DNA of 44,410 nt. Source: a virus. The notes beneath the pieces are model-generated. The model did not search any database. It was given only the letters and a program-made list of their open reading frames with translations, and had not been told where the DNA came from. Shown here piece after piece: positions 13,094 through 39,801 of this stretch (within the stretch, counting starts at the first letter, position 1; each line of letters begins with the position of its first letter). Where the stretch lies: IMG/VR virus record IMGVR_UViG_3300034403_000282, positions 1 to 44,410 of that record, one strand, 5' to 3'. The position numbers were made by a program, and so were the translations under genes.

Positions 13094-14449
13094 CTAACTC
13101 AGGTAGCTAGCGTCGAGAGTGTCGGTCGCGTCCATGTCGACCGCGGTGCCGGACGATGCGAGCCACGTGATTGTAGTTCCCGACAGGGTGTAGTCGTTCC
13201 CGGCGCCCTGTTGTTGTTTGACGCCGTTCAGGTAGAGCATCAGAGAGTTGACCGGGTTTGGTGTGTTGTTCAGAGTGTCGGTGATCGCGGTGTCGGTGCT
13301 GATGACCTCGGTCGTCACCTCTTCCTCGTTCTGGGTTTGGTTCGGCTCGGCACCGGCTGTTATGCCGTCGAGCTTGGTCTTGTCGGACCCGGTCATGAAT
13401 CCAGCGGCGCCGGCGGCGATTGCGTTCGCGTGCTGCGTTCCGCCGCCCCGGGTCCCGTGCTGCGCATCGGAGGCGAGGACGCCGACCTGAATGTCGTTGG
13501 CGTTCACCACGATGGACGCGTCGCCGTTCGCGACGACGTCGAGGTCGTTCACGTTCAGCACTAAGCCGGCCCCAGCCCCGCGGGGCGACCCGGCCCCGAT
13601 CAGGCCAAACGTGAGGCCATCCGTCCCGACGATGTCGGAACCCTCGACGTTACTACATGCGTACAGACGGGCGGCATCGGTCGTCCCTTCCTCAATCCAC
13701 ACACGAACGCCACGGGCCTCCGTTCCCGTTCCCATATCGGCAGACCGCGACCATGCGCCGGCGCCGGTGATATAGATCCCGTCCTCGGCGACGGTGCTTT
13801 GCTGGTCGGCGAGGACGCGGCTTGTCGACGTCAGGACGCCGTCGATCGTCTGTTCGCCGCTTAGGGTCAGGTCGCCTTGTGCGCGGACAAGACAGGACTC
13901 TTTCGCATCGATCCCGGCCGCATCCTGAAGCGCGTCGAGCTTCGTCTTGTCCGCTGCGGTCATGAACCCAGACGCCCCACCCGTTGCGGCGGCGTGAAGC
14001 GTTCCACCCGACCGGCTCCCGTGGTCGTGTGTGTGGTCCGACCGAGCGAGCGATGTGGCCGAGCCCTCGGCGTTAGCCTCGGCAAGCTCGACCGCTGCAG
14101 CGGTCGAAACGTCGTGCTTGTGGTCGGCCCGCGCGGGTGCCGTGGCCGAGCCCGTGGCGGCGGTGGCCCTGGTGACATCGGCCGGAGCCGCCGGCGCCGC
14201 GACGGCGTGAACATGGTCTTCTCGAGCAAGATTAGAGCTTGAGCCCTCGGCCGCGGAATCACCGATCTCGACCGACGATGCCGCTCCACCCGTCGCCACG
14301 GCGTGCTGGTGGTCGCGACGAACGAGACCGGTCGCCGTGCCTGTCACAGCCGCATCGCCGGCGTTGATGGTGCTGAGCGGCCCCGTTTCGTCGACCTGCG
14401 TCGCCGTTACGGTCCCGTCTGCGAGTTGTTTCCCTTTAACTTTCGGCAT
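13094..14449 (-). CDS. Tail fibre with repeated HxH metal-binding motifs
   Basis: 451 aa from ATG 14449, preceded by GAGGG. After the MPKVKGKQLA start, four repeats of about 30 residues carry DHxH: H47/H49, H79/H81, H110/H112 and H139/H141/H143. In trimeric phage fibres such HxH motifs are known to coordinate iron along the axis. GFMTAADKTKLD (about 161-172) and a second GFMTGSDKTKLDGI are typical fibre modules. The C-terminal 50 residues are paralogous to the end of the next upstream gene. Likely the main long fibre; the C-terminus would face the receptor. Confidence 0.8.
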   Translation of the reverse strand: MPKVKGKQLADGTVTATQVDETGPLSTINAGDAAVTGTATGLVRRDHQHAVATGGAASSVEIGDSAAEGSSSNLAREDHVHAVAAPAAPADVTRATAATGSATAPARADHKHDVSTAAAVELAEANAEGSATSLARSDHTHDHGSRSGGTLHAAATGGASGFMTAADKTKLDALQDAAGIDAKESCLVRAQGDLTLSGEQTIDGVLTSTSRVLADQQSTVAEDGIYITGAGAWSRSADMGTGTEARGVRVWIEEGTTDAARLYACSNVEGSDIVGTDGLTFGLIGAGSPRGAGAGLVLNVNDLDVVANGDASIVVNANDIQVGVLASDAQHGTRGGGTQHANAIAAGAAGFMTGSDKTKLDGITAGAEPNQTQNEEEVTTEVISTDTAITDTLNNTPNPVNSLMLYLNGVKQQQGAGNDYTLSGTTITWLASSGTAVDMDATDTLDASYLS

Positions 14450-14460
14450 GGCTCGCCCTC

Positions 14461-14922
14461 TTATCGGTAGCGGACAACCACCAAATCGGTTGTGTCCATT
14501 GCAAACGGTGCGTTGAGCCACGTAATCGTGGTGCCCGAAACCGTGTAGTCGGTCCCCTCGTCCGCCAAAACGCCGTTAACGGCGAAAGTTAGAGTCTGGA
14601 GATCGGCAGGCGCCGTCGAGATGATGAAGGTCACCTGGCCACTGGTGGGCGTGAACTCGTCTTCGTTCCATGGCCCAACGCTGGCGCCCGTCAATAGGGC
14701 GTAGGTCGGAGATCCGCCAGCGGTCAGCACGACGTGGACGTCATCGGTGTCGAGCTGCCGGACGAGCTGTCCGACTTGCAGCTGTAGACTGTTCCCGGAC
14801 GGGTCGAGTATGGGGTCGCGGTTGGTGTTCGCGATACGGTCGACGTCCGTCGGGAACGTGAACGCAACCGCGGGGTGAACCCCGTCGCTTCGGTCTTGCT
14901 GACTATGTCGTTCACCGGGCAT
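14461..14922 (-). CDS. Fibre/baseplate accessory protein paralogous to the long fibre end
   Basis: 153 aa. GAGGGG lies upstream of ATG 14922. The C-terminal half (NGVLADEGTDYTVSGTTITW and the following MDTTDLVVVRY) is clearly related to the end of the fibre gene at 13094-14449 (NGV...DYTLSGTTITW...MDATDTLD). The N-terminal part mentions no known motif. Probably a short fibre or adaptor sharing the same distal domain. Confidence 0.6.
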   Translation of the reverse strand: MPGERHSQQDRSDGVHPAVAFTFPTDVDRIANTNRDPILDPSGNSLQLQVGQLVRQLDTDDVHVVLTAGGSPTYALLTGASVGPWNEDEFTPTSGQVTFIISTAPADLQTLTFAVNGVLADEGTDYTVSGTTITWLNAPFAMDTTDLVVVRYR

Positions 14923-15138: not shown

Positions 15139-16499
15139 TAGACGCGCGCCTCTCGGAGGTCGAGCACGAGGCTCCCGATGGTGTAGAACGCAGCATCTAC
15201 CGACGCAGGATGGTTGATTGTGATGACCAGGAACAGGAAGTCGTTGGTCTCGAGAACGAGGTTCGCCGCGATATTGGTCAGCGTCAGAAGCTGCTGGCCT
15301 GCGCCGTTGGGCATCGTGACATCATCCGACACCGCCACAGCCGCGCCGGGCGCAGAGTCATCGTGCAGCCACAGTTGCGCGGTGTGGTTCCCGCTGCCCA
15401 GCGCCACGGACACGTTATAGCGAAGACGCGCGTCGATGACCTGAACACCGCGGACATCACCGAACACCTGCTGCGACAGATAGCCCGTGTCAGCGTTGCC
15501 CGTCAGGTGCCGGACGTTCGTGCCGACCCATCGCCCATCGGCGAAGGAGAAGCCGATGTTGTTGCGCTCTGTATCGGTGGGGGTCTCGCTCCCGTCGAGG
15601 ACCATGGAGCCGAGACCGAAGGCGCGCGACCATTCGCGCCCGCCGGGGTTCGTCAGCGGGAACAGGTCCGCCGTCGACTCGCCTGCCGGCAGCGCGGACC
15701 GGCGCCACCGTGGATAGCTATCGTTGCTCAAGTCAGGCGCCGACAGGTCGCGCAGACGATGACGCAACGACAACACCCCCCCGGCGTCCTCTTTGGCAGT
15801 GATTACAGGGACCTCAGAGGCGTCTTGAAATACACCAACCTCATACCCAGTGGCGCCCGGCCCGATGCGCGAGGCAGCAAAGGTCGTCGACAACGCGCGA
15901 ACCTGCGCGTTCACGTCGAAGTTCGCGGACGTTGTTCCGTCGGGAATGACGACCTGAAACAGCGCCTGCTGATTCACCGCGATGGCGGGCGCGCCTGCGC
16001 CCGGCGTTCCCTGAACCACGACGACTGCAGCGCTAGAGCTCCACCGCGTATCTTGTGGTATCGGCCCCGTCGGGATCTTTTGCGGCATCGACAGCTGACG
16101 GTCCGTGATGAGCGTCCAATCGGCGACGATGATGTCGATCCGCTCGCTTCCGCTGACGTTGTCCGCAATGCCGACGATGATGGTGTCGATCAGTGCGAGA
16201 AGCGTCGTCGGGACCGTCTCGGTCCCGTTGACAACGGACGTCAGTCCCGACGTCGCCGGAACGTGTTGCCAGGCGATGGCGCCCTTCGCGAGGTCGACGG
16301 TGATCGTCAGTGCCGGGATCGTCCACCGAAGTCCGCCGATGATCCGACCGGGCCCCCCGACCGCGCCGGTGTCGTCGAAGAAGAACTCGCCGAACAACTC
16401 CTGAAGCGACTTCGCCGTCCAGCGACCGCCGGCGTTGAAGTGACCCGCGTCCGGCTTCTGAAGGTTCGTGTGAAACTGTGCTTGTACTCCGGAACCCAT
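15138..16499 (-). CDS. Large tail fibre/baseplate-attached protein
   Basis: 453 aa. ATG 16499 has a GGAGG sequence seven bases upstream; the in-frame start at 16529 has none. The N-terminal 60 residues (LQKPDAGHFNAGGRWTAKSL) resemble baseplate-attachment regions. The middle and C-terminus are beta-rich, including TAQLWLHDDSAPG and LFLVITINH typical of carbohydrate-binding-like sandwiches. It contains the first copy of the 46-bp repeat (15533-15578), translated here as TDTERNNIGFSFADG. It follows the baseplate genes, so it probably attaches to them. Confidence 0.65.
   Translation of the reverse strand: MGSGVQAQFHTNLQKPDAGHFNAGGRWTAKSLQELFGEFFFDDTGAVGGPGRIIGGLRWTIPALTITVDLAKGAIAWQHVPATSGLTSVVNGTETVPTTLLALIDTIIVGIADNVSGSERIDIIVADWTLITDRQLSMPQKIPTGPIPQDTRWSSSAAVVVVQGTPGAGAPAIAVNQQALFQVVIPDGTTSANFDVNAQVRALSTTFAASRIGPGATGYEVGVFQDASEVPVITAKEDAGGVLSLRHRLRDLSAPDLSNDSYPRWRRSALPAGESTADLFPLTNPGGREWSRAFGLGSMVLDGSETPTDTERNNIGFSFADGRWVGTNVRHLTGNADTGYLSQQVFGDVRGVQVIDARLRYNVSVALGSGNHTAQLWLHDDSAPGAAVAVSDDVTMPNGAGQQLLTLTNIAANLVLETNDFLFLVITINHPASVDAAFYTIGSLVLDLREARV
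15533..15578. repeat. 46-bp exact direct repeat, copy 1
   Basis: Identical base for base to 42502-42547 in the same orientation; it starts GCCCATCGGCGAAGG and ends CTCTGTATCGGT. Flanks differ immediately. Here it lies in the tail protein gene and is read in a natural-looking frame. Confidence 0.95.
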
Positions 16500-17530
16500 T
16501 ATAAAGCCTCCATTACGACGACGCCGCAAACGCCGCCGAGCTTTGCCCGGTCGACTATCTCTTGAAGTGAACTCAGAAGACCATCTAGAAGCGACGTATC
16601 ATCGCCGATGTGGTCCTCGCTGATGATGCCGTCGTTGATTACGAACCCTTCGTCGACCAGCAACGCCTCGAGGTTCGGAACGACAATGCAGAAGGACGGC
16701 GGTCCGCTGAAGTGATCGTCGCCGATGACGCCCTCGCCGATGACCCAGCCGCTCTCGAACCACTCGACCATGGTCGCCTCGACGTTGAACTCGGCGAGCT
16801 CCTCGTTCACGGCCAGCATGATGTTCGTCCGCGTCACCGTCAGCGGCAGTCGCTTGACGCGCCGGCGGAGCTGGACGTCACTCTCGTCTTCTGCCCGTGG
16901 TAGGCCCTTCTCGGTCGCGATGAGGTCGAGGGTACCGATGGCACCACCGGTCAGGTCGTCTTGCGCTGCGAGCGTGATAGACCCATCAGCGATGCCGTCG
17001 AGGAACTCGACCTTACCTGCGTCCGTGGTGTCGTCGCTCCAGGTGATGCCGCCGAACTCGTCGCAGCTCTCGGGGAGCGGCACCGCCCACCGCGAGAGGT
17101 CACGCTCGGCGACGTTCCACAGGAAGCCCGTCCACTCGGCTGCGATGCCGATAATCACGGTGGTGTTCGCAGGTGCACCAGCACCGACTTCGAAGTCCTC
17201 GGTCGAGCGGTAGCGCGGCCCCCAGGGGGTCTCGAACAGAATCTGACCCTCGCGGATGCCCTGGATGTCGGTCGTGCCCAACGTCCACTCGATTTCGACC
17301 GTTCCCGTAGCCTTCTGCGGTCCCGTAGCGCTGCAGGTGAACACCGACTCGTGGAGCTCGTGGACGCGCTGCATGACCCGCGCCATCTGCGCAGCGCTCG
17401 CTCGGAAGGGGATCTCGGCGTGCGGACGGCCGTCGAACTGCGCCTTCCGGTAGGGCGTGCAGAGACGCAGCCACAGATCGTAGAAGTCGTCCGCGGTCAG
17501 GATCGGGTGAATGTTTTGGATGATTGGCAT
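16499..17530 (-). CDS. Baseplate protein, J-like homologue with C-terminal repeat
   Basis: 343 aa. The segment GLPRAEDESDVQLRRRVKR matches the conserved acidic-then-Arg motif of baseplate J family proteins, also seen in the next upstream gene as NDTETDAEFRSRGRG. The N-terminus (about 1-110) is mixed. Near the C-terminus a 16-residue unit occurs twice: GWVIGEGVIGDDHF and GFVINDGIISEDHI. It overlaps the fibre start by one base. Probably a second wedge component beside gpJ-like 17534-18661. Confidence 0.65.
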   Translation of the reverse strand: MPIIQNIHPILTADDFYDLWLRLCTPYRKAQFDGRPHAEIPFRASAAQMARVMQRVHELHESVFTCSATGPQKATGTVEIEWTLGTTDIQGIREGQILFETPWGPRYRSTEDFEVGAGAPANTTVIIGIAAEWTGFLWNVAERDLSRWAVPLPESCDEFGGITWSDDTTDAGKVEFLDGIADGSITLAAQDDLTGGAIGTLDLIATEKGLPRAEDESDVQLRRRVKRLPLTVTRTNIMLAVNEELAEFNVEATMVEWFESGWVIGEGVIGDDHFSGPPSFCIVVPNLEALLVDEGFVINDGIISEDHIGDDTSLLDGLLSSLQEIVDRAKLGGVCGVVVMEAL

Positions 17531-17533
17531 TGC

Positions 17534-18661
17534 TTATAGGACCGTGACGAGTCCTTCGGATGTCAAGAACCGCTCGCCGTGGTTCGGCTTCTCGATCCCG
17601 GCGGGCGCTATAGTCGCGATGATGCCCTCGACGCCAGCGACCGACATCGTAGCTTGCTCGACGATGCCTGGGGTCAGCCAGGTGTTCGCCGGCGCCAGCA
17701 GGGCGGACGGCGCCGCGTTGGACTTGAGCAGGTTGACCCGCGCGACGATGGTCTGCTGAATCGACCGCTTCACGGCGGGCGTCGCCTGTCCGGGCGCGTA
17801 GAACGGCTGCACCGAGATCGGTCGGAGAATGGCGGTTGCAGCTTCGACGAACACCTTGATGCCTGCCCCGCGCCAGTTCTCGAGCTCCTGCACTACCAGG
17901 TCGACGACCGCGTCGTTGCAGTTGCCCTCGCCGTCGCTGATGACGACGCCGACGATCCCGGTCTGGCAGCCGTCGAGCTCTCTGAACTCGTATACGGACG
18001 CGTTCCGGACTTGCGGGATCTCGAACGTCCCTTGCTCGATGGCCGACAGGGTCCCCCGTCGAGCGTTCACGAAGATGCCGCGGCCCCGGCTGCGGAACTC
18101 GGCGTCGGTCTCGGTGTCGTTGCCGCCGGCAGCCTTCTGCAGGTTCGTCACCGTCAGGTCTGCCGCAGGTAGCGCGCCGGCGAACGTGGTCAGGACGTTC
18201 GCCGCTGCCCGCTGGGTGCGCCCGGACCCCGACGACGTCGCCTCGACCGACAGCGTCGAGACGCCGATAGCGAGCCCGAGCTCGGTGTCCGTCAGGAATT
18301 GAACGGTGCCATCGGGGTCGGTGACGATTGTCCCGGCGGGTATGATGAGGGCGCCCACGGTGATCGTTCGTGTGAACGTCAGCGTCACGACCCCGGCGGT
18401 CGCCCCGAACCGCTGCAGCGCGTAGCGGTCCGCAATCCAGCGCGACAGCGCCTCCTGCCTCGACGTGTCCATGAACGTGCCGGTGAAGCGGTCCACCGCT
18501 TGGAAGTAGACCTCGGCGCCCATAGCCGCCCCAGCTCGGAGACTGAGTTCGTATGACGTACCGGGCAGCCGCAACGTCGCCTCGTCAATCTCGTCGGCGG
18601 TGTCGCGGTCGATGACCTCTGCGAGTCCGACTTCGAACAATTCGTCGATGAATGTGCTCAT
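17534..18661 (-). CDS. Baseplate J-like protein
   Basis: 375 aa, close to the usual 300-380 for gpJ/Mu gp47 proteins that join wedges around the hub. Typical features: an N-terminal helical region, a central beta domain (TLTFTRTITVGALIIPAGTI), the NDTETDAEFRSRGRGIF motif near residue 190, and a C-terminal PAVKRSIQQTIVARVNLL segment. It overlaps the gp25-like fusion gene by four bases, in the order expected for P2/Mu tails. Confidence 0.85.
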   Translation of the reverse strand: MSTFIDELFEVGLAEVIDRDTADEIDEATLRLPGTSYELSLRAGAAMGAEVYFQAVDRFTGTFMDTSRQEALSRWIADRYALQRFGATAGVVTLTFTRTITVGALIIPAGTIVTDPDGTVQFLTDTELGLAIGVSTLSVEATSSGSGRTQRAAANVLTTFAGALPAADLTVTNLQKAAGGNDTETDAEFRSRGRGIFVNARRGTLSAIEQGTFEIPQVRNASVYEFRELDGCQTGIVGVVISDGEGNCNDAVVDLVVQELENWRGAGIKVFVEAATAILRPISVQPFYAPGQATPAVKRSIQQTIVARVNLLKSNAAPSALLAPANTWLTPGIVEQATMSVAGVEGIIATIAPAGIEKPNHGERFLTSEGLVTVL

Positions 18662-20337
18662 AAGATGATAGCCCTCGCGGTCAGGTCGACGCGCTCATTG
18701 ATCGGCCCGAAGTCCGTTCTGACGCGTATTTGCGCGATGAGGTGATAGTTCTCCGACCTGGTCAACTCAACTCCGACGGCTTGAACGCCGGGGATTGCTT
18801 GCAGCTGCCGCTCGCGTCTCCGCGCGTCGTCCTTCAGGTCGAGCGGTAGAAGCTGCTTGTGGTTGGAGGTCGTGCCGTGATTCGGCGCCCAGACGATCGA
18901 ACCCAGCGGGGTCAACAACGTGTCGAGGACCACCTTCCGAATCGTGGCGAACCCGCCGCTGAGCGGAATGTCGGTGTCAGCTGTGTATTTGAAGTCTCTG
19001 AACACGCTCAAATCGAGGTCGAGCAGGTTCTCCTTCGGTCGTTCGTACACCGTCAGCCGCTTTCCGGTGAGCGTCTGGCTCGGGAACGGGACCTCGAACG
19101 CAAAGTCTGTTCCGTCGAGTTGGTAATCCACTTCCTCGCGGAGCGTCATGTCGGTGACGAGGACGATCTTCGTGTCCGACTCCTGCTCGATCCCGGCCAC
19201 TCGTGGCTTGTCGGTCGGTCCCATCAGCGTCCACGAGTCCGGCAGCAGCTGCCGGCGTTGGAACGGGCCATCGGCCTCGACGAGTATCCGGTTCTGACCC
19301 CGCACGAGAGCGCGAAGAAGCTTCGTGATTTGGCCGAGGGCGCCGACCGGCGGCGGGTCCGGCATCACGGGTCCGTCGAGCAAGATCGCGGCGGCGGTCG
19401 TCTCGCCGCCACGAACGAGCGACGGTTCGCTGATGTGGAGGTCGTCAAGCGGCGCGTCTTCAAACAGCGGGTCGAGCTCGGTGTCAGTCAAGCCTGGGCC
19501 GTTTTCGAAGTTCTCGACGGTGTGAAAGACCGTGTTCCCGTCAGAACTGAAGGCGTTCGACGCCTCAAAGGTGTCACCCACGAGCCCGTGCCGGCAATAG
19601 TTGTCGACGGCCAGCAGGTTGCGCCCGGTTACTGACGCGTTCGCCATCCCAGTGACCGGATGATCCTGCGCCACGTTGTTCGACATGCAGTTATAGAACG
19701 TGCAGTTGTGCAGGGCCACTGGATGGGTGTCGGCCTGGCGTTCGACGGCCCAATCGGTGCAGCGGATGAACTCACAGGCGTACAGTTCGAGCTGCGCGGA
19801 GTTCTGATGCCAGACACCCACTATGCAGTCGACGAACGTGCAGGCCTGAACATCAGGGGCCACGATGCCGCCGAGTTCGAGCCACAATCCGAAGTCCCAA
19901 CCATCGAAGGTGCATCCCGCGAACAATGGCCGGGCGCCAGCGAAGTCGCTCGAGTAGCCTCGCGTCCCGCCACCGGTAGCCTCGATGCGCAGGCCGAACA
20001 GGATCATGGCCAGCAGCGTTGTATGCGAGAAGCCGGTGGTGGCTCCGGTCCACTGCAAGATCGGGCGCGTGGCCACATCGAACCCACCCACCGGATCGCC
20101 GAATACACCGTCGCCCGCATAGACGATCCCGTTCTCGTCGACGCCCCGGAACAATAGTCCGGTGGAGATTACCAAGGCGGCTGCATGTACGTAGGGCGTT
20201 CCGTCCGCGTAGAGGATGTGCAGCGAATCGCCTGCTGACATCTGTGTGATGGAGAACGGAATCGTATGCCACGGGTCATCGAAGCCGCCGGTGTCGCCAT
20301 TGTTGCCGTTGAGGCTGTCTACCCAGAAGGTCGCCAT
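18658..20337 (-). CDS. Beta-helix protein fused to gp25-like baseplate wedge domain
   Basis: 559 aa. The start FWVDSLNGNNGDTGGFDDPWHTI is a classic opening of right-handed parallel beta-helix proteins, and residues to about 300 carry repeated CTF/CEF-type turns (GCTFDGWDFG, ACTFVDCIVG, ACEFIRCTDW, NCTFYNC). Residues about 437-559 (FRDFKYTADTDIPLSGG, LTPLGSIVWAPNHGT) resemble the W/gp25/Mu gp46 wedge domain, normally a separate 110-140-aa protein. The position between spike and gpJ-like genes is where gp25 belongs. So the wedge appears to carry a built-in pectate-lyase-like adhesin or depolymerase domain. No catalytic residues assigned. Confidence 0.7.
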   Translation of the reverse strand: MATFWVDSLNGNNGDTGGFDDPWHTIPFSITQMSAGDSLHILYADGTPYVHAAALVISTGLLFRGVDENGIVYAGDGVFGDPVGGFDVATRPILQWTGATTGFSHTTLLAMILFGLRIEATGGGTRGYSSDFAGARPLFAGCTFDGWDFGLWLELGGIVAPDVQACTFVDCIVGVWHQNSAQLELYACEFIRCTDWAVERQADTHPVALHNCTFYNCMSNNVAQDHPVTGMANASVTGRNLLAVDNYCRHGLVGDTFEASNAFSSDGNTVFHTVENFENGPGLTDTELDPLFEDAPLDDLHISEPSLVRGGETTAAAILLDGPVMPDPPPVGALGQITKLLRALVRGQNRILVEADGPFQRRQLLPDSWTLMGPTDKPRVAGIEQESDTKIVLVTDMTLREEVDYQLDGTDFAFEVPFPSQTLTGKRLTVYERPKENLLDLDLSVFRDFKYTADTDIPLSGGFATIRKVVLDTLLTPLGSIVWAPNHGTTSNHKQLLPLDLKDDARRRERQLQAIPGVQAVGVELTRSENYHLIAQIRVRTDFGPINERVDLTARAIIL

Positions 20338-20948
20338 CAGATCGCCTCCGCTGCGTTCGCGGTGACGTTCTCGGCACCTTGCGCCGATGGTTTGGCGAGT
20401 TCGTGTGCGGTGACGAGCTTCACGATGTCGTCGGTCAGGGCGCCGCTGAGGAGCGTGTTCAGCTTCACGAGGAAGTCGCCGATCGGGGATCCGGGGGTCG
20501 GGTTCATGTAGTCGTAAAGCGCCTCGGCGTCACCGAGCGACTCGTTGTTGATGGCGATGGGGTCGCCGCTGCCGCCGCCCTTGCCGAGATGAACGGTCCC
20601 GGCCGCGTCGATGTCGATGTCGTTGCGGCTGCGCAGGACGAGGTTGCCCTTCTCGGGACCGTGGATCTCTCGGTTGTCCTCGTTGACCGGTTCGAAGTCG
20701 TCACCGAACTTGCCGAGCACCGAGAGACCGGCTCGAGTGTCGTCGCTCTCGGGCTCGTTGCCAGCGAGGTTCCGACTAAGCCGGACGCGGTCTCCGACCT
20801 TGTAGGTCAGCCAGTCGCCGGGGCTATCGTGGATGTATGCAGTCGCCTTGTGGCCGTTCGCGAGACGAACCACGATTGCGCGATACGTCATCCCATCGTC
20901 CACGGTGACGTGTGTGGGCTTCTCAAGTACTCGGGCGACCTGTGCCAT
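20337..20948 (-). CDS. Baseplate spike/assembly protein (gpV-like)
   Basis: 203 aa. ATG 20948 overlaps the hub stop (TGATG). The N-terminal half resembles an OB fold (KATAYIHDSPGDWLTYKVGDRVRL). The middle has the beta-spiral sequence LRSRNDIDIDAAGTVHLGKG, as in gpV/gp5 spikes. The C-terminal 70 residues are helical. It probably forms the trimeric puncturing tip below the hub. Order hub-spike-wedge is as in P2 and Mu. Confidence 0.75.
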   Translation of the reverse strand: MAQVARVLEKPTHVTVDDGMTYRAIVVRLANGHKATAYIHDSPGDWLTYKVGDRVRLSRNLAGNEPESDDTRAGLSVLGKFGDDFEPVNEDNREIHGPEKGNLVLRSRNDIDIDAAGTVHLGKGGGSGDPIAINNESLGDAEALYDYMNPTPGSPIGDFLVKLNTLLSGALTDDIVKLVTAHELAKPSAQGAENVTANAAEAI

Positions 20949-22783
20949 CAGATAGCCTCCAGCGTCTCGCCACGAGTCACGCGGATGTCGTCCAGCAACG
21001 TCTGGGCGATGACGTCCGCCCGGTATTCTCCGTTCTCGCCCATCTGGTGGACGATTTCGGCGACCTGGAAGAGCAGCGAGGGCTTCAAACGGTCGGACGC
21101 CTCGGCCAGCTTCCGCGCTGCCGACTTGGGAACCCCTATCAGTTGGAACGCGTCCTCGAGGTCGAGCCCCTTGAAGCGGTCCGCTCTCGCGAACTGCATC
21201 TCGATGAGTGCTCCGGACGCGCAGCTCAGCAGGTCGGCGTCGCGCACGGTGCCGCCGGAAGTCCACGGCAACGAGGACGAGAACGTCAGCTCGAGCTCGC
21301 CTCGGTTCACCTGCGCCCAGACGCGCTTGGCGATGCCCCGGAGAGCCGCTGACGAGTTCGCGCCATGGGCGAACACTGTGATCCCGTTGTTGTCGACGCG
21401 CTTGCCGTCGGCGTCCCGCGTGTCATCGTGGAACCTCTCTCGCAGCGTTTTGCCGGTGACCGGGTCGGTCGAGTAGACCTCGACCCAATTGACCCGGTTA
21501 CCGCCGATCAACTCGCGACGCTCTACCATCTGGGCGATGTCGTTCCCGTGCTGCATTACCCGATGCATTCGGTCGCCACGCTGGAAGGGTCGCAGCGTCT
21601 GGCCGCTCTGTATCTCGAGACCGTCGACGATGACCACCATCGGGTTGCCCGACGTGCTGACGCCGACCTCCGGGACCGCGCCCACAAGCTGGCAAACGCG
21701 AGTAATCGCGTCCCATATCGACATTTTCTTCGAACCCCAAACGCGGTCGGGGGTCGGTTTGATGATTTTGGTCTGGTAGGTCCCGGGTCGATAGACGCGC
21801 TTGGACTTCAACGGAAGCTGCAGGCTGTAGCTCTCGAGCGTGCTGCGCGGTACCCGCTCCACCTTCTGGGTGTTGTCGCCGAAGGTGGTGATCTTGAGCT
21901 TCGAAGTCTTCCGGCCCATGACCTTGTCGACGAGGTCCTGCTCGGTGCCGCCGTTGAACTCGACCTCCTTTACCTGGACCGACGACACGCCCTTCTTGTC
22001 GTAGACTTGGATCGTCTCGTAACGGCCCTTCTTCTTGCGGATGCGCTTCTCTTCCGTCAGGCGCGCCGAGATCGTGGGGCCCTCGTTCACTGCACCGCGC
22101 GCCTGGACGATCCACTTGTCACCGCCCGGCACCTCGTTGATGAGCGTCAGCACGATTCCCTCGAGCGATTGGTCGATGTCGATCCCTTCGAACACCTCGG
22201 GGGTCGCTTCGCGAGCGAGCAGCAGCGCGGTGAAGTCCCGACAACTCAGCGTGATGTCGCCTGATGCGTCATCGCGCTCGACCGCATCGACAACGCCAGC
22301 GAAGGAGCCCGGGTCTCCGGGCTTCAGGTTCTCCATCGCCTGGTCGAGCGTTTGCGCGTTGTTGCTGTGGACGAACAACCAACCGAACACCTGAATAGAC
22401 TCGAACAACTGGAGGTCGACGGGCAGCGAGTCGCCGCGGAGCGTGATGTCGAACTCGTCAGCGATTGACGGTGGGTTCCTCGTCCAGGTGAGCTCCCGGG
22501 CGAGGAGGCCGGGAATCAGCGCTCTCTCGCCCGCAGTGTCCTCCGTCGCGACCGGCGAGGGCTTGGGGACCTCAATTCCCAGGGCGCGGAAGACGCGGGT
22601 CTTCGAGGCCGCGTCGAGCGCCTCGGTCAGCCCGGACTGGATGCGGCTCGGCAGCCTCGAGGAGAACTTGTCCGGCAGGTTGACGTAGAGGTCGACGCGG
22701 GACCGCACACGGACCGCCGCGGTCTCGACGATCTCCCGCTCGGTGAGCCGGGTATTCGCACGAACGAGGTCTAGCTTGCCCAT
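20948..22783 (-). CDS. Baseplate hub protein (gpD/Mu gp44-like)
   Basis: 611 aa. It starts after the LysM-like gene with a one-base overlap. The N-terminal region includes RELTWTRNPPSIADEFDITL and LFESIQVFGWLFVHS; the central part has basic insertions (KRIRKKKGRYETIQ). The C-terminal region (VWAQVNRGELELTFSSSLPW, SALIEMQFARAD) fits late-control-D hub proteins. Such hubs sit at the tail end and bind the spike. It is longer than the usual 350-400 aa, with insertions of unknown role. Confidence 0.75.
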   Translation of the reverse strand: MGKLDLVRANTRLTEREIVETAAVRVRSRVDLYVNLPDKFSSRLPSRIQSGLTEALDAASKTRVFRALGIEVPKPSPVATEDTAGERALIPGLLARELTWTRNPPSIADEFDITLRGDSLPVDLQLFESIQVFGWLFVHSNNAQTLDQAMENLKPGDPGSFAGVVDAVERDDASGDITLSCRDFTALLLAREATPEVFEGIDIDQSLEGIVLTLINEVPGGDKWIVQARGAVNEGPTISARLTEEKRIRKKKGRYETIQVYDKKGVSSVQVKEVEFNGGTEQDLVDKVMGRKTSKLKITTFGDNTQKVERVPRSTLESYSLQLPLKSKRVYRPGTYQTKIIKPTPDRVWGSKKMSIWDAITRVCQLVGAVPEVGVSTSGNPMVVIVDGLEIQSGQTLRPFQRGDRMHRVMQHGNDIAQMVERRELIGGNRVNWVEVYSTDPVTGKTLRERFHDDTRDADGKRVDNNGITVFAHGANSSAALRGIAKRVWAQVNRGELELTFSSSLPWTSGGTVRDADLLSCASGALIEMQFARADRFKGLDLEDAFQLIGVPKSAARKLAEASDRLKPSLLFQVAEIVHQMGENGEYRADVIAQTLLDDIRVTRGETLEAI

Positions 22784-23844
22784 TATTCGACCCCGCGGGC
22801 GTCCAGGCGGGGCAGGAGCACGCGCTGACCTCGGACGAGTCCGCTCCCGACGATGCCGTTGAACTGTGCGACCTTGACCCAGGCACCGGCGTCTCCGTCG
22901 TATGCGTTGAAGCAGATCAGCCGCAGGTCGTCTCCATCGAGCGCGTTGTGAATACCGATGAGGTCGTTCCGCCCCTTCAGGTCGAGCCGGCGGGACTCGA
23001 GGGCTGCGATCTGACGCATGGCGCGCGTCGTTCGCTCGATGCCGACCACGAGCTCGAGCGCGGTCATTACCTGCAGCGGGTCATCCGTTCGAACGAACGC
23101 AGCGGGCTCGGCGGCCATCGACTCGCGAAACAGCTTCGAGCCCGATCGGATGGTCCCGAAGCTGCCGGTCAGCGACTGCGCCAAGCCCGCCCCGTCCTGG
23201 GCAGTGTCGCGGTACTCGTCGATGACCGCGACCGAGTCGCTGATTCCTTGGTTGATGACGTTGGCGGCGGCGAAGGCACTGTCGAGCCGGTCGGTGGCGG
23301 TGTTCAACGGCATCCGGGCGCCGTTCAGGAAGCCGAGCCAGGCGTTGCGGATGCGCGTCAGCGTGTCCGTCGAATCGGCGACCAGCGGCACCTTCCGCAC
23401 AGCCTGGAAGCGGTCCGGCTGCAGCGGCTTGATGTTCAGCGTGATGTCGCGCTCGCTACCTCGTGGCTGTGCGCCCTCCGCGCTGACGAGATAGCCGATG
23501 TAATCTTCCTCGCCGGTGAGCTCGACCTGTACGGTCACCGCATCGCGGACCATCTCACGCAGCAACGCGAGACCGCGCGCAGCGGTCTGGACGGCCTCGC
23601 CGCCCTCGAGCTTCATCGGCTCGTTGCTGGACGACAGCTGACGGTTCCGCAGTCGGAACTCGTATTCGATCGGCATCTCTTCGGCACCGTCGAGTCGAGC
23701 TCTACCGACGTTCCGGCCCTTCTGGTAGGCCACATCGCCACGCTGCTCGGTGCCGACCGAGAACCCGCGTTGCGGGACGCAGTCGTCCTTCAGCGTCAGG
23801 ACGCGCCGAGGCGGTTCGAGTTGGCGGATGACCATCTTCGACAT
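22783..23844 (-). CDS. LysM-like tail/baseplate assembly protein
   Basis: 353 aa. The C-terminal 60 residues (AYDGDAGAWVKVAQFNGIV...GQRVLLPR) have the LysM-like pattern found in tail proteins that follow tape measures, such as Mu gp43 neighbours. The N-terminal part has a beta-sandwich-like start and then helices. LysM modules bind glycan chains, or here pack onto the hub. Its position between tape measure and hub supports the role. Confidence 0.65.
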   Translation of the reverse strand: MSKMVIRQLEPPRRVLTLKDDCVPQRGFSVGTEQRGDVAYQKGRNVGRARLDGAEEMPIEYEFRLRNRQLSSSNEPMKLEGGEAVQTAARGLALLREMVRDAVTVQVELTGEEDYIGYLVSAEGAQPRGSERDITLNIKPLQPDRFQAVRKVPLVADSTDTLTRIRNAWLGFLNGARMPLNTATDRLDSAFAAANVINQGISDSVAVIDEYRDTAQDGAGLAQSLTGSFGTIRSGSKLFRESMAAEPAAFVRTDDPLQVMTALELVVGIERTTRAMRQIAALESRRLDLKGRNDLIGIHNALDGDDLRLICFNAYDGDAGAWVKVAQFNGIVGSGLVRGQRVLLPRLDARGVE

Positions 23845-26531: not shown

Positions 26532-28133
26532 CTATGCGGCCTTGCGGCTGACTTCGAGGTCGGAACCGTAGACAACCCGAAGGGTCAGGACGTCGATGTT
26601 CCCGATCTCGAGCACGGCCACATTGACGGTGAATTGCTTCGTGTTCGGGTCATATGACCCGGTCGTCGGGTTGAACCCGCCGATCCGTTCGTTCTCGAGC
26701 AGCTGCTCGAGGTACTCGTCGATGGCGTCGGTCAGGCCCTCCTGATTCGACACGCTCGCCACCGCCTTGTGGTAGGGCAGCGAGACCGCGAGAAGGTTCT
26801 TGTACAGGAAGAACGCGAACCGGCGGGTGTAGAACTTCGTGACAGCGTCGGCCAGCGGCGCCGCGTTGAACGTCGGCTGCAGTCGAGCGCTCAACCCACC
26901 GGGGTTGGAGAACTCGATGACCGGCTGGATGATGCCCGCGTCCTCGTGGGCCTTCCGGTCCGGCGCCGGCGTCAGCGCCTCGACCCCGGTGATGCGGTAG
27001 TTCGTCAGGTTCGCGGTGAAGTTCGCCGGGTTCTGTTCCGGCCGGAACTGCGCCGCGTTGAAGCAGAACGATACCGCCGACGGGATGTCGTGCTGGAAGC
27101 TCTGCTCGGCGATGAGGTTTGCCGAGTCGTCCGGGAACTGGCGGGTCCAGCCCGGGTGGTTGTAGGCGCCGTATGTCGCCTTCAGCGTGGTCCGACCGAC
27201 TCCGTCCGTTGCGCTGCCCTGCGCGACCGACGCTGACGTCCCTTGCGGCGGGGAGCCGCATGCTAGCCGGAAGTAGCCCTCGGCGCTCGCGTCCTCGGCG
27301 TGACGGAAGAGGTCGTCGACGATGAGAAGGTCGGTCCGGTCACAGCAGACCAGCTCGGCGATCTGACCGGTCGCGTAGGTGATCGACTGATCCATCGCGA
27401 GTGTGTAGCGCTTGAGAATCTCGGCGATGTTCATCAGGAACGGCGGTGTGATGACCGACGTCGTCACCACCACCTCCGGGTCTTCCGGCACGTCGATGAA
27501 CGTGGTCACGGTGTTGATCGCCACCGGTGCGACGGTGGTGTCACTAACCTGACGGACGCGGACCGTCTTCGCAGAGAAGTCGGTGCCGATCCACGTCACC
27601 TCCTCAAGGGTGGCGACGATGTAGGGGGTGCCCGCACCGTCCTCGATGCGCGATCCAGCCGGAAGCGTATAGCTCCCGAACACGCCCGCGCCACCGCCGC
27701 CGGAGCGGTCGACTTCGACGAGAAGCGCAGTCGGCAGCGGAGCGAGCGAGTCGATGGTGACGTCGTATAGCGACAGGTCCGGAACGGTCAGGACGAGCAG
27801 AGGAGCGTCGAGCGCCTCGACCTGCGCCGGGAGGTTGCCGTGGTAGCCCGAGAGTGACCCGCGGTCGTTGTAGTTGTCCTGGTCACCGAAGTCGACGCCA
27901 TCGCCCATCCACGAGCGGAAGCCGCCGTAGAGAGACTTTATGTCCTCGGGGACGATGCGGACCGGGATGTTCGGCGCTCCGCGGTCGTTGGGAACGGCAC
28001 CGAAGATGCCGACGGAACCGCGACCGGCTGTCAGCTGAACGGCTTGGGCCAGCTCCTCGATGATGTTCACTTTCGTGTTCGAGGCGAGACGCTCGTTCCC
28101 GGGGAACGACGTGAAGAATTCTACGATCGGCAT
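26532..28133 (-). CDS. Contractile tail sheath protein
   Basis: 533 aa. Recognisable sheath features: an N-terminal strand segment (MPIVEFFTSFPGNERL), a central insertion region (about 130-300), and the C-terminal NLTNYRITGVEALTPAPDRK plus TKFYTRRFAFFLYKNLL and the closing strand of sheath proteins. The sheath contracts to drive the tube into the cell, and it establishes this phage as a myovirus. It overlaps the preceding gene by one base. Confidence 0.88.
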   Translation of the reverse strand: MPIVEFFTSFPGNERLASNTKVNIIEELAQAVQLTAGRGSVGIFGAVPNDRGAPNIPVRIVPEDIKSLYGGFRSWMGDGVDFGDQDNYNDRGSLSGYHGNLPAQVEALDAPLLVLTVPDLSLYDVTIDSLAPLPTALLVEVDRSGGGGAGVFGSYTLPAGSRIEDGAGTPYIVATLEEVTWIGTDFSAKTVRVRQVSDTTVAPVAINTVTTFIDVPEDPEVVVTTSVITPPFLMNIAEILKRYTLAMDQSITYATGQIAELVCCDRTDLLIVDDLFRHAEDASAEGYFRLACGSPPQGTSASVAQGSATDGVGRTTLKATYGAYNHPGWTRQFPDDSANLIAEQSFQHDIPSAVSFCFNAAQFRPEQNPANFTANLTNYRITGVEALTPAPDRKAHEDAGIIQPVIEFSNPGGLSARLQPTFNAAPLADAVTKFYTRRFAFFLYKNLLAVSLPYHKAVASVSNQEGLTDAIDEYLEQLLENERIGGFNPTTGSYDPNTKQFTVNVAVLEIGNIDVLTLRVVYGSDLEVSRKAA

Positions 28134-37253: not shown

Positions 37254-37586
37254 TTATGCGGCCTCGCGATAGAGACTCGAAAGCGCGGCTTCAGCCGCCC
37301 GTTTTGCTGCGGTGGCGTGTCCCGCCTTGCCGAACACGCTCCCGAATCGGGTTTTACTCCGCGCCGGATTCGAGGCCACGGCCGCGACACTCGAACCGAA
37401 GCGGCGCCGGCGCACACGTTCGTCGTGGTCGGCCCTCGTCAGTATCCGGTGCGGACCCCGGACCCACCACATAACGCCGGCTTCGTCGTCGTCCGACACC
37501 CAACCGACTTCCTTCCCGCCGACGAGGGCGAAACACGTTCCGGGGTCCTTCGTGTCGGGCTTCCACTGAACTTGTGCTGTGCTCAT
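37254..37586 (-). CDS. Hypothetical protein between terminase and portal
   Basis: 110 aa. ATG 37586 overlaps the terL stop by ATGA. The first 55 residues form a small beta domain with Trp (VQWKPDTKDPGTCFALVGG, EVGWVSDDDEAGVMWWVRG). The C-terminal half is basic, with an Ala-rich helix (ATAAKRAAEAALSSLY). It could be a packaging accessory. No family recognised. Confidence 0.6.
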   Translation of the reverse strand: MSTAQVQWKPDTKDPGTCFALVGGKEVGWVSDDDEAGVMWWVRGPHRILTRADHDERVRRRRFGSSVAAVASNPARSKTRFGSVFGKAGHATAAKRAAEAALSSLYREAA

Positions 37587-39139
37587 CTCGCGAACCAATT
37601 TGGCAGACCGCTACGAGGATTCATAGCGACATCCTGTTCGATGCGTTCTGACAGGGCGTAGCGCCCCGCGTCAAATGCGTGATCGTCGCTCTTTCGTTTG
37701 CACCATAGCTCAGCGTTACGACCGACCGCGTTTTCCGGGCGAACGAGCGATTCGAACGACCGCCACGAAGAAGGCGTCGCGATGCTGAACTGATCCCGGC
37801 CCTGATGAATCCGGCGCTGAAAGAATTCGAGCCCGTCGAGCCTGTCGAGGTATGCCGTCTGACAGCTGAAGCCCCGCTTTTCGAACTGCGCGACCGAGCC
37901 CGGCGAATCATGCGGGAAGAAGATCGGGACTTGCTGCCACTGTCCGGCCGTCCAAGTGCAGAACCGCGACCAGCGGTCGAGCGCCTTGTAAGCAACGGCT
38001 GTCCAGCATTCAGCCTGCCGGCCTCGGCGGTTCCGCCATCCCTGTTCATCGTCGATGACGAACTGACGCGCGCTGATGGTTTCCAGCTCGTGAACGCCGC
38101 CGTCGTGATCCTCGCCCCAAACCGTGAAGACCGCCGGATTCGTCCATCCGAAATCCATCCCGGCCGTGATGCGTCGGATTCGGTGTGTCGGGAAGACGCG
38201 CTGATGAACGTTCTGTTCGAGTTCGACGAGGATCTGACCCTTGAACGCGACCCACGACGCCAGAAAGTTCCGCTTCCACATTGGCGCCGGCATCCGGGCC
38301 TTAGCTTCAAGCGCCCATTGCCTGATCCGAGGGTTCGACGTGTTATCCATCGTCGTCCACTGAACGCACCGCACACGAGGCGACACGGCGACGTGTTCGC
38401 CCGTGCTGTCGAGGATGTCCTGACTCGCTTCGGGCGATCCCGTCGCCCACAACCGATAGAACGCCGAGGCCTTTGACAGCGGCGTCGATGTGATGATCGC
38501 CCAGGCGTTGGTGTCCGCCAGCGCCGGCTGGAGGTGGTCCTCCCAGACGTCGGCCTTCAGGCGAGCGAACTCGTCGAGAAGGACGCCGTCGTAGGCATCA
38601 GCGACGAGGTTGCCGGGGTTGTCGCCGGACCTCCACTCGACGAGGAGCCCACCGAGCAGCCACCAGTCGCCCCGCTTGGCCGCCTTGACGATGAGCCCGC
38701 CGCTGACCGCCATGCCTAACATCCGCTGCATCTTGCGCTTCAGCGGCTTCAGCAGCTTGTAGATCGGAGCAACGACCACGTAGTGGAGGAAGGGGTCCGG
38801 CGATGCGCCCTCGGGCTTCCACTCCGCCGGCCCCCAATGTTCCCAGCGACCGAGCCCGAGACGCTTGTTCTCGTAGTCGTCGCAGATCTTGTCGATGAAC
38901 TCGGCGGCGGACCACTCGCTCTTGCCACCGCGACGACCACAGTTGAGCACGGTGGTGTCGACGCCCGGCAGATTGGCGATGTGGTGGGCGATGCCCTGCT
39001 TGCGGTGTGGCGTATAGCCCAGCGGGAACTTCCGCTCGGGTATACCGTACTTCTCGGTGAGTTCCTTGACGTAGGCTGCCGCGTCGTCGGGATCGACCTC
39101 TACCGGGTCAGCCTTCGCGAGCGCTCGCCTCGAGGGCAT
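37583..39139 (-). CDS. terL: Terminase large subunit
   Basis: 518 aa from ATG 39139 (TGATG with the small subunit). ATPase part: Walker A CGRRGGKS (67-74), Walker B GVLLDE (185-190), motif III ITSTP (216-220). Nuclease part: GMDFGWTNP with its first catalytic Asp, and KSDDHAFDAGRYAL near the end. It powers DNA packaging and cuts concatemers. Glu codons switch from GAG (11 of 13 up to residue 200) to GAA (14 of 17 from residue 237), with the change between 38542 and 38431, suggesting a recombination joint between ATPase and nuclease. Confidence 0.92.
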   Translation of the reverse strand: MPSRRALAKADPVEVDPDDAAAYVKELTEKYGIPERKFPLGYTPHRKQGIAHHIANLPGVDTTVLNCGRRGGKSEWSAAEFIDKICDDYENKRLGLGRWEHWGPAEWKPEGASPDPFLHYVVVAPIYKLLKPLKRKMQRMLGMAVSGGLIVKAAKRGDWWLLGGLLVEWRSGDNPGNLVADAYDGVLLDEFARLKADVWEDHLQPALADTNAWAIITSTPLSKASAFYRLWATGSPEASQDILDSTGEHVAVSPRVRCVQWTTMDNTSNPRIRQWALEAKARMPAPMWKRNFLASWVAFKGQILVELEQNVHQRVFPTHRIRRITAGMDFGWTNPAVFTVWGEDHDGGVHELETISARQFVIDDEQGWRNRRGRQAECWTAVAYKALDRWSRFCTWTAGQWQQVPIFFPHDSPGSVAQFEKRGFSCQTAYLDRLDGLEFFQRRIHQGRDQFSIATPSSWRSFESLVRPENAVGRNAELWCKRKSDDHAFDAGRYALSERIEQDVAMNPRSGLPNWFAR

Positions 39140-39801
39140 CAATGCGTGGTCGGGCTGACTTCGTCGATGTCAGCCTGCGTCACACCCTCACCGAGACGTG
39201 TGCGACGCGCCAACGAGAGAGAGCTCTCTGCGAGGAACGAGGCGAACCGCTCAGCAAGTTCGGGGTCGACCATGCGCATCGACAGAAGCAGGTCCTCGGG
39301 CATGAGCAGACGACCACCACCGGCGGTGCCCTGCTTGGCCTGTTCGAGCCGCCACTCGGCGAGGGCGGATTCGGCGTTGGCCTTCTTCGTCTCTGCGAGC
39401 AGCTTGACCTTCTCCTCCGGACTGCGTCGGCGGTTCGAGAAGCGACCAGGCCACCGACGCTCGAGCAGCCAGGCCTTCGCCCGCCAGTCGCCCTTTCCGT
39501 CGTGGAGCAGCTGGGCCAGGATGCTCGCCTCGGACGCCTGCAGGGCGGTCTCGTATTCGACGTGGAGACGAACGAACGGCCGGTCGTCCTTCGGCACCTG
39601 CTCGATGACCTCGTCAAGGTCGACCTGGTCCTCGTCGCTGACCAGGCGGAGGGCGGTGCGACCTCTAGCGAGGTACCTGAAGGCGGTCCGCTGACGCCAG
39701 CCAGCGCGCCCAGCGGCGCCGGTGACCGTTGTTCCGAGAGACACCGCCTCGATGAAAAGGCGGTGTCTCTCGTCGTTGTAGTGACTCTTTCTACCGGCCA
39801 T
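39139..39801 (-). CDS. terS: Terminase small subunit
   Basis: 220 aa from ATG 39801 with GAGGGG upstream; the longer frame to 39831 lacks support. The N-terminal region (TVTGAAGRAGWRQRTAFRYL) is a helix-turn-helix for pac/cos recognition. The middle is a charged helical oligomerisation region. It ends in a TGATG overlap with terL. The 137 bases upstream (39802-39938) hold no supported gene. Confidence 0.8.
   Translation of the reverse strand: MAGRKSHYNDERHRLFIEAVSLGTTVTGAAGRAGWRQRTAFRYLARGRTALRLVSDEDQVDLDEVIEQVPKDDRPFVRLHVEYETALQASEASILAQLLHDGKGDWRAKAWLLERRWPGRFSNRRRSPEEKVKLLAETKKANAESALAEWRLEQAKQGTAGGGRLLMPEDLLLSMRMVDPELAERFASFLAESSLSLARRTRLGEGVTQADIDEVSPTTH

Follow-up and report, generated by a model that had tools for sequence, protein, structure and literature searches.

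Can the gp25-type sheath initiator, a small, conserved core part of contractile machines that is tightly bound to the sheath, carry a large additional domain at its N-terminus? The question is raised by a minus-strand gene of an uncultured virus, which is predicted to encode a beta-helix and a gp25-like domain in a single chain. The window analyzed here is the whole of IMG/VR virus record IMGVR_UViG_3300034403_000282 (44,410 bases, linear, 63.6% GC). Among its genes we recognized those for TerL, the portal, a capsid protein of the Phage_cap_E family, the tape measure, baseplate J and an amidase endolysin; helicases (DnaB-type and others) are also encoded, and no tRNA genes were found in the 44,410 bases. 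The phage is of the contractile-tail type, unclassified, known from metagenome sequence alone and without close named relatives. Its TerL is at most about 25% identical to those of named phages among the matches listed, and neither the capsid nor the sheath candidate at 26532-28133 matched anything in named phages. Relatives were sought via J, the sheath candidate, TerL and the capsid, which yielded one congener contig (L002, 21,858 bp) that shares TerL (81%) and ends before the tail genes. The TerL gene itself (37586-39142, minus strand) shows a mosaic pattern when compared with L002:10001-11551. Over the first ~235 residues protein identity is 90-100% (DNA 93-99%, to about codon 210), and beyond this point it falls abruptly to ~55-78%, which on these sequences likely marks a recombination breakpoint between the ATPase and nuclease parts.

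Gene order in the baseplate region

On the minus strand, the tape measure is followed by a LysM-like gene, a hub candidate, a V-like gene, the fused gene, J, a second J/I-like gene and the fibres (Table 1). P2 and Mu have the same order (hub, V, W, J, I), and in this scheme the fused gene takes the place of W/gp46; no spare gene lies between the V-like gene and J. The names V, hub and LysM-like are given by position and by eye, with no family matches; in particular, the V-like gene had no Pfam match above noise, so that its name rests on position. The earlier note on this DNA had described a beta-helix followed by a gp25-like domain in one chain, and this overall architecture is backed both by the gene order and by the sequence statistics given below.

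Table 1. Positions of the fused gene, its parts and the neighboring baseplate genes in the window
Feature	Coordinates	Strand	Evidence
Fused gene, 559 aa: beta-helix, linker domain and gp25-like sheath-initiator domain (predicted)	18658..20337	-	Unbroken ORF, codon-position GC, GGAGG, overlaps
Residues 1-316, predicted right-handed parallel beta-helix	19390..20337	-	PF13229, PF01696, DUF5123, rung motif
Residues 317-435, linker and uncharacterized domain	19033..19389	-	No Pfam match for residues 330-424
Residues 436-559, gp25-like sheath-initiator domain (probable)	18661..19032	-	gp25 HMM, hhalign, H-H-E-E-E model, Foldseek
J-like baseplate protein	17534..18661	-	PF04865 E 8.8e-20, phrog_6 E 4e-28
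Second wedge protein, J/I-like position	16499..17530	-	phrog_6 E 0.023, position
V-like position, OB-type/spike candidate, ~203 aa, ATG 20948	20337..20948	-	Position, sequence reading
Hub candidate	20948..22783	-	Placement between the LysM-like and the V-like gene; without family match
LysM-like/gp53-like candidate	22783..23844	-	C-terminal LysM-like sequence by eye; Pfam without support

The N-terminal half and the linker

We assign residues 1-316 to a right-handed beta-helix with strong confidence, judging from sequence motifs. The Pfam Beta_helix family (PF13229) matches residues 138-225 with E 2.3e-4 and 21.3 bits, below its curated cut-off of 25.9, and weak Pfam matches to PF01696 (E 0.0014) and DUF5123 (E 0.018) together span residues 138-307. 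A C[TE]F rung motif (CTF or CEF) recurs at residues 141, 166, 188 and 212; the spacings of 25, 22 and 24 are the size of one beta-helix rung, so that repeating rungs of ~22-26 residues are present. Self-similarity within residues 130-240 is likewise greatest at lags of 22 and 24 (shuffle p = 0.013), and across the whole region (residues 35-320) it is weaker (shuffle p = 0.057). The expectation that the first ~300 residues form a beta-helix is supported by the C[TE]F repeats, and by PF13229 at a score below its curated cut-off; neither half of the fused protein reaches the cut-off of a curated model. The full-length AlphaFold model (pLDDT 35) was too poor to judge the beta-helix.

No solved structure in the PDB showed sequence similarity to this half above noise, and Pfam, PHROGs and NCBIfam gave no match above noise to a catalytic family (lyase or hydrolase) or to a tail spike. 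We consider it likely that the beta-helix would serve as a surface-binding or a fibre-docking module, the two taken jointly, and unlikely that it is an enzyme. A specific form of the latter, which would keep the same architecture and be a functional variant of it, is an active depolymerase on the sheath initiator that cuts glycans at the baseplate rim. Many phage depolymerases are beta-helices; nevertheless, we hold this possibility to be rather improbable, given that neither a lyase or hydrolase family nor a PDB entry was matched and that beta-helix depolymerases are usually trimeric, and the XM1 initiator is monomeric on each wedge (PMC10457771).

The two halves are joined by ~120 coding residues in the same frame as both. 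By eye, the linker sequence DYQLDGTDFAF (DYxLxG) resembles DYT[VL]SGTTITW segments of the fibre genes (13094-14922, minus strand). Kinship of the linker domain with the phage's own fibres was considered and set aside, as it was unsupported by phmmer and no relative was present among the window frames. One of the fibre proteins (13094-14521, minus strand) contains four repeats, spaced apart, that each end in R.DH.H (residues 68, 100, 131 and 160) and come after a stretch rich in small residues.

The gp25-like domain and the integrity of the chain

The last 120 residues had been described as gp25-like, and here the curated collections are silent: residues 436-559 have no Pfam match even at E 10 and none in PHROGs or NCBIfam, and PF04965 (GPW_gp25) has no match anywhere in the window. 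We therefore used a gp25 HMM built here from 17 gp25-type proteins (from P2, T4, KVP40, syn9, Herelleviridae, Thermus phages and others). With this model the fused frame ranks first of the 413 window frames at 13.4 bits, the runner-up scoring 6.2 bits, and the isolated domain scores 17.3 bits, above the maximum of 12.9 among 5,000 shuffles. These statistics support the description. The earlier reading depended on residues 430-559 matching gp25; hhalign does align the gp25 family with residues 449-539, nearly the whole domain, at moderate strength (pairwise E 1.5e-4, probability 51). The core common to the two is GFATIRKVVLDTLLTPLGSIVWAPNHGT. The EPR(L) motif is absent, its place being taken by IPG at residues 515-517; there are also gp25 members in Herelleviridae without EPR, which have DxR instead. 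Since the EPR motif reads IPG, membership of the gp25 family is likely, not proved. A tblastn search with the domain alone gave chance-level E-values, yet two of its seven matches fall in phages that also rank high among the J matches. These are Bacillus phages Goe26 and SBSphiC, in which the gp25 gene immediately preceding J was hit.

Structure prediction had been proposed as a check on the full protein. Run without an alignment on the domain alone, AlphaFold gave a helix-helix-strand-strand-strand order at low confidence (pLDDT 52). (A MAFFT alignment with Herelleviridae gp25s was discarded for folding, as it misplaced the C-terminal strands.) In a Foldseek search with the domain model, IraD, a gp25-fold protein, was third in the PDB (110 columns, E 0.22), and gp25-like/DUF2634 proteins were among the better viral matches, individually non-significant; with the full-chain model IraD came 46th (E 1.3). 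No Foldseek match with these low-confidence models of the domain or of the full chain reached E 0.001. Two long proteins of uncultured phages in BFVD, A0A6J5NAE6 (1041 aa) and A0A6J7WX90 (514 aa), have predicted structures that weakly match the domain model, and other long gp25 chains or fusions may therefore be possible.

Combining the sequence evidence with the gene position, we identify residues 436-559 as gp25 with good confidence. The product could instead be a baseplate or tail-spike protein ending in a small alpha/beta wedge domain other than gp25, with an unrecognized gene elsewhere coding for the sheath initiator, a reading that draws on the silence of Pfam, PHROGs and NCBIfam, the missing EPR motif and the weak Foldseek scores. 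We regard it as improbable because the domain occupies the slot between the V-like gene and J, where there is no spare gene, because it has the top gp25 HMM score in the window and exceeds all 5,000 shuffles, and because the alignment-free model retrieves IraD and gp25-like proteins.

The chain itself is intact. The gene runs on the minus strand, a strand that the earlier note had left out in placing one chain here, from an ATG at 20337 to a stop at 18658, 559 codons without interruption. A GGAGG ribosome-binding site lies 7 nt 5′ of the ATG, its start shares 1 base with the stop of the preceding V/spike-like gene (TGATG), and its stop shares 4 bases with the start of J (ATGA); with overlaps at both ends, the frame fits an intact operon. 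In each block of 60 codons, those at the junction (residues 300-440) included, GC content is highest at the third and lowest at the second codon position. No start codon inside the gene that has a suitably positioned ribosome site was found 5′ of the C-terminal domain. A frameshift or assembly error had been named as what could undo the fusion, and the architecture is indeed seen on one metagenome contig with no second copy found; however, the constant codon-position signal through the junction, the in-frame coding linker and the native overlaps at both ends make it very improbable that an error of sequencing or assembly fused two genes, or that proteolysis splits the chain after translation.

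Predicted role and comparison with known systems

Together, we interpret the product as probably a structural baseplate protein, in which a C-terminal gp25-like sheath initiator carries an N-terminal beta-helix outward. The roles of gp25 and other sheath initiators have been described (PMC10457771, PMC10966104, PMC3004832): the initiator of XM1, seated on every wedge heterotrimer, anchors the first ring of the sheath through beta-sheet augmentation (PMC10457771), and the upper baseplate of T4 contains six gp25 copies (PMC3004832). By analogy, residues ~436-559 would rest on the J-type wedge and, like gp25 and W, initiate polymerization of the sheath by beta-strand augmentation. If the domain acts as in XM1 and T4, six beta-helices would project from the baseplate-sheath junction; the N-terminal 316-residue modules, in approximately six copies, would be carried outward there and might attach to the cell surface, serve to dock fibres or cleave polysaccharide, the first two being favored. 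A bolder proposal, that a sheath initiator with six host-binding or glycan-cutting beta-helices physically couples recognition to the start of contraction, with no separate fibres or wedge adaptors, we consider doubtful. A natural fusion of ~435 residues to gp25, if true, would demonstrate that a large cargo can be accommodated by the core wedge, and would make it possible to test directly whether contraction can be triggered by a surface-binding module on the sheath initiator.

The arrangement had been thought to be that of no standard phage, and a beta-helix-gp25 fusion was indeed not found elsewhere: a survey of 50,697 phage records yielded no such relative, IMG/VR and 84,980 GTDB genomes gave none for the fused protein, and the literature searched contained no description of one. 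Searches of IMG/VR, the GTDB genomes and the phage records with either half separately were empty or gave noise. The IMG/VR and GTDB searches used 8-residue patterns, which reach close relatives only, so that this absence is weak evidence. N-terminal cargo on gp25, however, has a precedent. Although gp25 was said to be normally a stand-alone protein, in the Herelleviridae examined it is the C-terminal half of proteins of 220-249 aa, and in two of these, Twort ORF050 and Goe3 gp215, a weak LysM domain precedes it (Pfam E 0.002-0.003, just below the cut-off). The two LysM-gp25 proteins (Twort, L008:2049-2753; Goe3, L004:2167-2895) are annotated merely as baseplate protein. They resemble the fused protein in having gp25 C-terminal in a longer chain directly before J, and are the best weak matches of the domain; they differ in that the N-terminal LysM covers ~45 aa of a 234-242-aa protein, with no beta-helix.

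Right-handed beta-helix proteins (PF13229), phage tail spikes among them, have the rung motifs and the length of the N-terminal region in common with the fused protein; such proteins are normally separate and often trimeric, with their own baseplate anchor. With the gp25/W sheath initiators (PF04965 and PF10934: T4 gp25, P2 W, XM1 gp15) the fused protein shares the gene slot between V and J, the predicted helix-helix-three-strand topology and a local LLTPxGS...G motif. Unlike them, it has ~435 additional N-terminal residues, has IPG in place of EPR and falls below Pfam detection. A gp25-like domain on the end of a beta-helix chain appears to be an uncommon form of a familiar part, observed so far on a single contig.
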